Of a stretch of DNA of 55,077 nucleotides, positions 1-41,926 are shown in pieces. This stretch comes from Akkermansia muciniphila. Its GTDB lineage: Bacteria > Verrucomicrobiota > Verrucomicrobiia > Limisphaerales > SIAT01. The translations under genes and the position numbers were made by a program. Below the pieces are notes generated by a model, which had not been told where the DNA came from, searched no databases, and saw only the letters and a program-made list of their open reading frames with translations. The first letter of the stretch is position 1. Each line of letters starts with the position of its first letter. The DNA lies in contig CAMASG010000006.1 in the NCBI GenBank assembly GCA_945860945.1, positions 1-55,077 on the forward strand, read 5' to 3'.

Positions 1-324
1 CATCCTTCGCCACGCCTTGGCCAGTGCGATACATGAACCCGAGGTCGGACTGCGCGGGGGCAACGCCTTGATCTGCGGCTTTGCGATACCACTTCACGGC
101 CTCAACCTCATCCTTCGTCACGCCTTGGCCATTGGCATACATAAACCCGAGGTTGAACTGCGCGCCGGCATTGCCTTGATCTGCGGCTTTGCGATACCAC
201 TTCACGGCCTCCACCTCATCCTTCGCCACGCCTTGGCCATTGGCATACATCAGCCCGAGGAAGTACTGCGCGGAGACCTCACCTTTTTCGGCTCGGCCAC
301 GCAATTCGGCTAACGCCTTCGCAT
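1..324 (-). repeat. 108-bp tandem repeat encoding 36-aa Sel1 units
   Basis: catccttcg(c/t)cacgccttggcc recurs at 1, 109 and 217, spacing exactly 108 bp. Confidence 0.85.
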
Positions 325-468
325 CGCCCTCACTCGCTTTTAGCGTCAGCCTGGTCGTCGATACAGTGGGTGCGGCAGGGGTCTTCTCCTGTGCCAGCAG
401 TGCTCCGCAGCCAAGCAATGTGGCGGCCAAAACCAGACTGGGAACGAACAGGCGGGGAATCTTCATGC
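1..468 (-). CDS. Sel1-repeat (TPR-like) secreted protein, C-terminus cut by window edge
   Basis: Reverse strand reads MKIPRLFVPSLVLAATLLGCGALLAQEK...AEKGEVSAQYFLGLMYANGQGVAKDEVEAVKWYRKAADQGNAGAQFNLGFMYANGQGV...; 36-aa Sel1 repeats; signal peptide; absent from ORF track because it is open at the window edge. Confidence 0.9.
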
Positions 469-542
469 GTTCACCTTACTCAACCCTCGTCCGCACGCAA
501 GTGCTTCGTCACCCGTTCACCTCTTCCTTCTCTCTTCTCTCC

Positions 543-574
543 CTTGGCGTCTTGGCACCTTGGCGTCTTGGCGG
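543..574. repeat. 4 tandem copies of 8-bp CTTGGCRN
   Basis: cttggcgt-cttggcac-cttggcgt-cttggcgg read directly. Confidence 0.85.
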
Positions 575-636
575 TTTAGCTCCCTTCCGCCTCTCTTTTC
601 GCCTGTTTCCTCTAAAAATCACCTTTCCAGCGTGTC

Positions 637-916
637 GGAACGACTTTCCAAAGCTCTGGAACGTCGTGCCGGAGGGTTGGAACGCTGCGCCAACGTATCG
701 GAACGCCTGGCCAAGGTGTTGGATTGACGTTCCATCGCATTGGATTGCCTAGCCGGAGGGTTGGAACGGCGTGCCGACGCTCTGGAACGTCGTGCCGGAG
801 GGTTGGAACGCTGCGCCAAGGCATCGGAACGCCTCGCCAACGTGTTGGATTGACGTTCCATCGCATTGGATTGCCTGGCCGGAGGTCGGGAACGGCGTGC
901 CGATGGATTGGAAAGG
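637..916. repeat. 21-bp tandem array with partial dyad symmetry (13 full units plus partial), organised as a 126-bp higher-order repeat
   Basis: Units start at 637,658,679,...,889; all keep GG at positions 1-2 and CC at 12-13; 658-783 and 784-909 are near-duplicate 6-unit blocks. Confidence 0.92.
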
Positions 917-41758: not shown

Positions 41759-41865
41759 GGTACAAGGTTTGTGCCAGTGCGGTACACGGTCTGTACCGGA
41801 CGGGTACACGGTTTGTCCTGCCGGTGCAGAAGTTTGTACCGCCAGTCCCGTGGACTGTACCGAAG
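41759..41865. repeat. Tandem array of 5 degenerate 20-22 bp palindromic units, consensus GGTACA-CGGTT-TGTACC
   Basis: Units at 41759 (ggtacaaggtttgtgcc), 41781 (ggtacacggtctgtacc), 41803 (ggtacacggtttgtcct), 41823 (ggtgcagaagtttgtacc), 41844 (agtcccgtggactgtacc). Confidence 0.85.
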
Positions 41866-41926
41866 GGGCTGTCGCACGCGACAAGCGGGTTGAACGGCGT
41901 GGGGGCGTCGGCTATGGTGACGGCTC

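Follow-up and report, generated by a model that had tools for sequence, protein, structure and literature searches.

A dispersed intergenic element built of tandem dyads at two-helical-turn spacing in a Verrucomicrobiota genome

Positions 637-909 of the window (here the whole 55,077-bp stretch of DNA that was analysed) hold 13 tandem units of exactly 21 bp, which start at 637, 658 and so on up to 889 and which without exception carry GG at positions 1-2 and CC at positions 12-13. We put at about even odds (roughly 50%) the reading that this array makes up the body of a small element, dispersed, intergenic and non-coding, which is composed of a leader, tandem dyads and terminal half-sites and whose dyads bind a dimeric protein. 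The element itself is composite, dispersed, intergenic and non-coding, with units phased at two helical turns and with constrained arms, and the class found in this genome has a period fixed at two helical turns but a palindrome that varies from element to element. We infer that a dimeric protein binds on one face of the DNA. The array is a variant of published and unexplained 20-21-nt repeats; the anatomy of the unit and the bounded copies are newly described here. A first-pass annotation of this DNA had stated that no feature class accounts for the array, which does not hold, since non-coding tandem repeats of 20-21 nt were already in the literature (PMC8161180).

The same annotation had described 13 consecutive units of exactly 21 bp and a 126-bp block duplicated once, with about 12 mismatches counted by eye. 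Both descriptions are borne out: precisely that number of positions differs between the two blocks, with linkers changed far more often than dyads (p=0.001; Table 1), and the proposed block duplication is supported. The longest run of GG-N9-CC at 21-bp steps is 13 in the window, while none of 100 local shuffles exceeded 3, and TRF returned periods of 21, 42 and 126 for the 637-909 stretch. When the whole window was scanned by autocorrelation, only this array and a second one further along (Table 1) stood clearly above the shuffled background, with two borderline stretches slightly above it. The description of the unit as approximately the palindrome GGAACG-N-CGTTCC is right as regards the dyads, but most units of the family are asymmetric, a full GGAACG arm being paired with a weaker partner that ends in CC; exactly one arm is full in 39 of 59 distinct units, and both are full in 12 of the 59.

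The array is intergenic, lying between a Sel1-repeat gene that reads leftward (start 466) and a DUF1501 gene that reads rightward (start 1084). Half-sites of the forms CCYTTCC and GGAARGG close most of the other verrucomicrobial GGAACG arrays as well. A 7-bp direct repeat (AAATCAC) that flanks the array is probably due to chance, because the shared leader extends beyond it. The Sel1-repeat paralogs at window positions 1-466 and at C22:34272 (L359) contain direct repeats of 108 bp, and the C22 copy is without an upstream array.

Table 1. Positions of the array, its parts and related features (window coordinates unless a contig is named).
Feature	Location	Strand	Description
13 tandem 21-bp units	637..909	+	13-bp dyad GGAACG-N-CGTTCC (degenerate), then 8-bp linker
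First 126-bp block, 6 units	658..783	+	
Second 126-bp block	784..909	+	Against first block: 12 differences, 10/48 in linkers, 2/78 in dyads
Left terminal half-site CCTTTCC (replaces CGTTCC)	622..628	+	
Right terminal half-site GGAAAGG (replaces GGAACG)	910..916	+	
Leader flank	555..636	+	Homologous to C62 array flank; starts inside CTTGGCGTCTTGGCGG, contains CTGTTTCCTCTAAAAA (603-618)
CTTGGCGTCTTGGCGG or close variant	Window 541-574; C62 (L022:4911-4926); C10 near 15868		
Second window array, GGTACA-N5-TGTACC + 5-bp linker	41759..41868	+	22-bp period, ~5 degenerating units, intergenic; of the class of the 637-909 array but with another sequence
Period-21 arrays	C4:24385-24657 (L425); C7:17026-17277 (L407); C24 start (L444)		Unrelated sequences
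Period-11 array; period-10 array	C1:39459 (L422); C17:3981 (L417)		Unrelated sequences
Right ends of elements	C3; C10		C3 = GAGACAAAACGGCTCAG; C10 = GAGACAGTATGGCTCAG

The genome (G000) holds three GGAACG-N-CGTTCC arrays. In addition to that of the window, one lies at C62:5646-5868, located 16 bp past a sulfatase gene's stop codon, and one at about C20:36087-36287, upstream of an HI0933-like gene. Window positions 555-712, which span flank and array, match C62 at 90%, and therefore flank and array were copied together; only one flank is common to the window (C6) and C62 arrays. The asymmetric units of the C62 array switch direction part-way. With linkers of 3-13 bp allowed in four array-bearing genomes, the linker was 8 bp in all matches but one. 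Three array elements have, beyond their leader, a short direct repeat that reads CTTGGCGTCTTGGCGG or closely resembles it (Table 1).

Relatives were searched with a strict pattern and with a 55-position sequence model. Other genera within the window's order of Verrucomicrobiota carry the family: it is present in G074 and in two genomes of a single genus (G185 and G211). A weak match is found in G007, which shares its genus with the window. Uniqueness in the genome together with absence from relatives, which the first-pass annotation had named as telling against its reading, is thus not what was found. The G185 and G211 arrays are orthologous, lying between a BPD_transp_2 permease gene and a PSCyt1/DUF1549/DUF1553 gene, and number 13 versus 7 units. 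In comparisons with empty sites, synteny around the G185 array was found to be broken within its genus, and the G007 contig appears to end where homology ends. The spread of the arrays is patchy (2 of 11 genomes in genus g26), and plasmid and phage records contained no similar DNA.

The wider class in this genome was surveyed by a tandem-period scan covering 1.24 Mb of the 2.63 Mb, in which coding status was assigned by ORF length and not by a gene caller. Intergenic arrays with periods of 21 or 42 were found on C3, C32, C4, C7, C10, C19, C24, C20 and C62 and in the window, the other intergenic periods being 22 (window), 10 (C17) and 11 (C1). In long ORFs, most arrays had periods of 12, 15, 30, 45 and similar. 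The further intergenic arrays are unrelated in sequence to that of the window, and several are palindromic with palindromes of other sequence. One sequence-specific protein therefore cannot explain the whole class; the differing palindromes fit families of elements with a separate reader for each, or else a reader that recognises the spacing. The C24 array lies at a contig start and is unsure in coding status, as is a 16-bp array on C21.

Two of these elements occur as bounded copies. A 232-bp element at C3:4505-4736 (L404) recurs at about C32:5000-5240 (L452), and a 376-bp element at C10:15903-16278 (L410) recurs at the end of C19 (L442); each pair is 97% identical with abrupt ends, and the copies include the array flanks, with no similarity beyond. 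The C3/C32 element contains a 21-bp array of TTTGACTC..GAGTCAAA, and the C10/C19 element holds a 21-bp array of the GTGAACGCGTTC / GGTC type. The leader core CTGTTTCCTCTAAAAA is found in the window, in C62 (L022) and in C3 (L404), although the units of C3 differ. Terminal inverted repeats beyond the half-sites CCYTTCC/GGAARGG and target-site duplications, as sought by eye in a test for BOX- or MITE-like elements, were nowhere clear, and the C10/C19 element has no obvious terminal inverted repeats.

Conservation of the arms over the linkers was found in two independent comparisons, one being that of the window blocks. The other concerns orthologous arrays of 11 units each from two termite-gut Verrucomicrobiales (L149 and L199; 75.5% identity over 531 bp), in which the dyads are 88% and the linkers 67% identical (p=0.00016), the left flank is 74.5% identical, and GGAA shows no change and TTCC a single one across the 11 units. 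Such constraint speaks against a functionless satellite that arose on a chance seed by slippage and unequal exchange, as do the presence of the GGAACG family in several genera, the clustering of intergenic periods at 10-11 and 20-22 bp, and the copying of elements together with leader and trailer. We regard a neutral satellite as unlikely, even though it would accommodate the difference in copy number (13 versus 7), the block duplications, the patchy distribution and the occurrence, in this genome, of perfect arrays with periods of 10 and 11 bp. A coding origin is barely credible: 21 is a multiple of 3 and some frames are open, so that heptad repeats of seven codons (for example ERRSDAL or WNDVPTR) can be written, yet dN/dS in six frames of 18 arrays is consistently low in none, differences between orthologous arrays fall 17/16/13 on the three codon positions, and Pfam recognised the flanking genes but no domain in ORFs spanning the arrays. 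The translated repeat that the first-pass annotation had named as a contrary outcome accordingly left no coding signal in these tests. Also very improbable is an iterated operator for one transcription factor of the IclR type. IclR group 2 sites (TGRAACA-N1-2-TGTTYCA) often stand in tandem at 18-22 bp (PMC8222616), and the likeness extends to GRAAC..GTTYC dyads at that distance; unit and spacing are similar, and the units of a further verrucomicrobial array (L197) read GGAACATTGTTCC. These operators are rejected because the regulator is absent: IclR_C (PF01614) is lacking in G000, G185 and G074, all of which bear arrays. Moreover, the arrays are long, with 7-19 sites and not two, and adjoin unrelated genes at unrelated loci.

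The main rival to dyads bound by a dimeric protein is a hairpin function in RNA or single-stranded DNA, in which the self-complementary array would form a long hairpin that stabilises or attenuates a transcript, acts like a terminator or serves as substrate for a single-strand transposase; roles of this kind have been proposed for BOX- or RUP-like elements. Every array tested folds well as RNA, with z-scores of -2.5 to -6.4 in this genome, -3.4 to -5.5 for GGAACG arrays, -10.6 for L197, and -11.8 and -16 for L149 and L199; strong folding, however, is what any array of palindromes would give. A column-permutation test, which measures palindromy beyond that expected of a tandem array, gave p values of 0.01-0.02 for C3, C10 and C19 and marginal ones of 0.07-0.10 for the window, C20, C4 and the second window array, with no excess in C7, C1, C17, C24 or the tested C62 stretch. 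The restriction of this excess to some arrays counts against the protein-binding reading, as does the good folding of every array tested. Elements differ in their arms, yet the arms are self-complementary, and several arrays lie just past a stop codon, that of C62 among them. Against pairing stands the behaviour of the arms. Co-variation, proposed as a check by the first-pass annotation, was sought among the 59 distinct GGAACG-family units and none was seen: mismatches fall on one arm or the other and are not compensated, and Watson-Crick pairing at positions 3/11 is below that of shuffles. In the orthologous L149/L199 arrays, 18 of 111 pairs are broken versus 5 double changes. Recognition of half-sites is therefore favoured over pairing within the unit. 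Furthermore, the rigid 21-bp period matches two B-DNA turns, and hairpins in RNA do not require it; the arrays stand in varying settings with respect to genes (divergent, tandem, convergent), and Rfam gave no match above the gathering score. We consider a hairpin element possible but doubtful. The iterated protein-binding array originally proposed is compatible with the dyad units, the exact two-turn phasing, the block duplication, the intergenic site, the occurrence of related arrays in this and other genomes and the conservation of arms over linkers; the arm co-variation named in that annotation is absent.

Among known systems, the repeats of 20-21 nt described by Subirana & Messeguer are constant in size and variable in sequence, form several families per genome, are non-coding and unexplained in function, and have been proposed to be the site of a protein that polymerises on DNA (PMC8161180). 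The present arrays share their hallmarks, with at least four tandem copies (13 units of 21 bp), non-coding location and several families per genome. They differ in having dyads, constraint on arms over linkers, half-sites, shared leaders and bounded copies, and in coming from Verrucomicrobiota and others; the GGAACG family also spans several genera of its order, whereas the published families are mostly species-specific, a tendency with stated exceptions and not part of the definition. The BOX element of Streptococcus (boxA-boxBn-boxC) is intergenic and composite, has a variable tandem middle and strong predicted folding, and occurs in copies spread within a genome (PMC3049150). The sister elements C3/C32 and C10/C19 resemble it in their dispersed bounded copies, constant ends and variable tandem middle. 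Whereas boxB is one sequence family, the tandem units described here vary from element to element, with a phasing of two helical turns.

REP/BIME sequences with RAYT (PMC3733652) are likewise extragenic palindromes with several families per genome. They were rejected on the layout of the units, which are GG-N9-CC plus an 8-bp linker without a GTAG- or CGTC-tagged stem-loop, and on the genome's one Y1 gene, which has inverted ends of its own and no 21-bp units around it. This RAYT-like Y1_Tnp of ~312 aa lies at C32:24793-25128 (L366); the pair of inverted sequences at its flanks (GGTTCTTGATATTG / CAATATCAAGAAC-like) is imperfect. CRISPR was set aside as well, the 8-bp linkers recurring between units in place of unique spacers of ~30 bp.

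Under the preferred reading of a protein-bound element, each dyad would be the site of a dimeric DNA-binding protein (transposase-like or nucleoid-type), and such proteins would load next to each other along a single face of the DNA. Arrays may grow and shrink through duplication of multi-unit blocks, and elements may occasionally move to new intergenic sites. The two-turn constraint is hereby described in another phylum, together with further anatomy: the units are dyads with constrained arms and free linkers, the arrays have terminal half-sites, elements with different units share leader motifs, and two elements have recent copies. An oddity thus becomes a question open to test, namely what it is that reads dyads spaced two turns apart, and defined probes for it are supplied. 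On the practical side, array elements may break assemblies and may be mis-annotated as hypothetical proteins.

Similar arrays are found in public genomes. A first, stricter pattern gave 0 matches; the query used contained the seed arm GGAACG and left out the opposite TTCC arm. Among the matches listed, 21-bp GGAA-N5-TTCC-like arrays occur in other Verrucomicrobiota (L102, L149, L197, L199), in Spirochaetes (L091, L179, L185), in Bacteroidota (L093, L139) and in one Deltaproteobacterium (L090). Period and outer arms are common to these arrays and the linkers are different; any common descent among them is putative. Many matches in Polyangium and Streptomyces were set aside as non-palindromic or due to chance, and a search of the phylum for GGAA-N5-TTCC at free spacing returned mostly chance matches in coding DNA. 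It would be a long shot to propose that bacteria of several phyla carry mobile elements with a body rebuilt into a two-turn palindrome array, with family-specific half-sites and common leader and trailer motifs, and read by a spacing-sensing protein; if true, such mobile palindrome-array elements would represent a new kind of DNA element and a chromosome-binding system.

Two of the spirochaete arrays (L091 and L179) come from one Spirochaetaceae MAG, Po218_bin20, and share their flank on one side only, which resembles the arrangement of the window and C62 arrays. Tandem GGAA-N5-TTCC palindromes are also present in many of the viral contigs L235-L352, with spacings clustered at 21-23 bp, and about half of the contigs with these palindromes appear to be one related prophage family.
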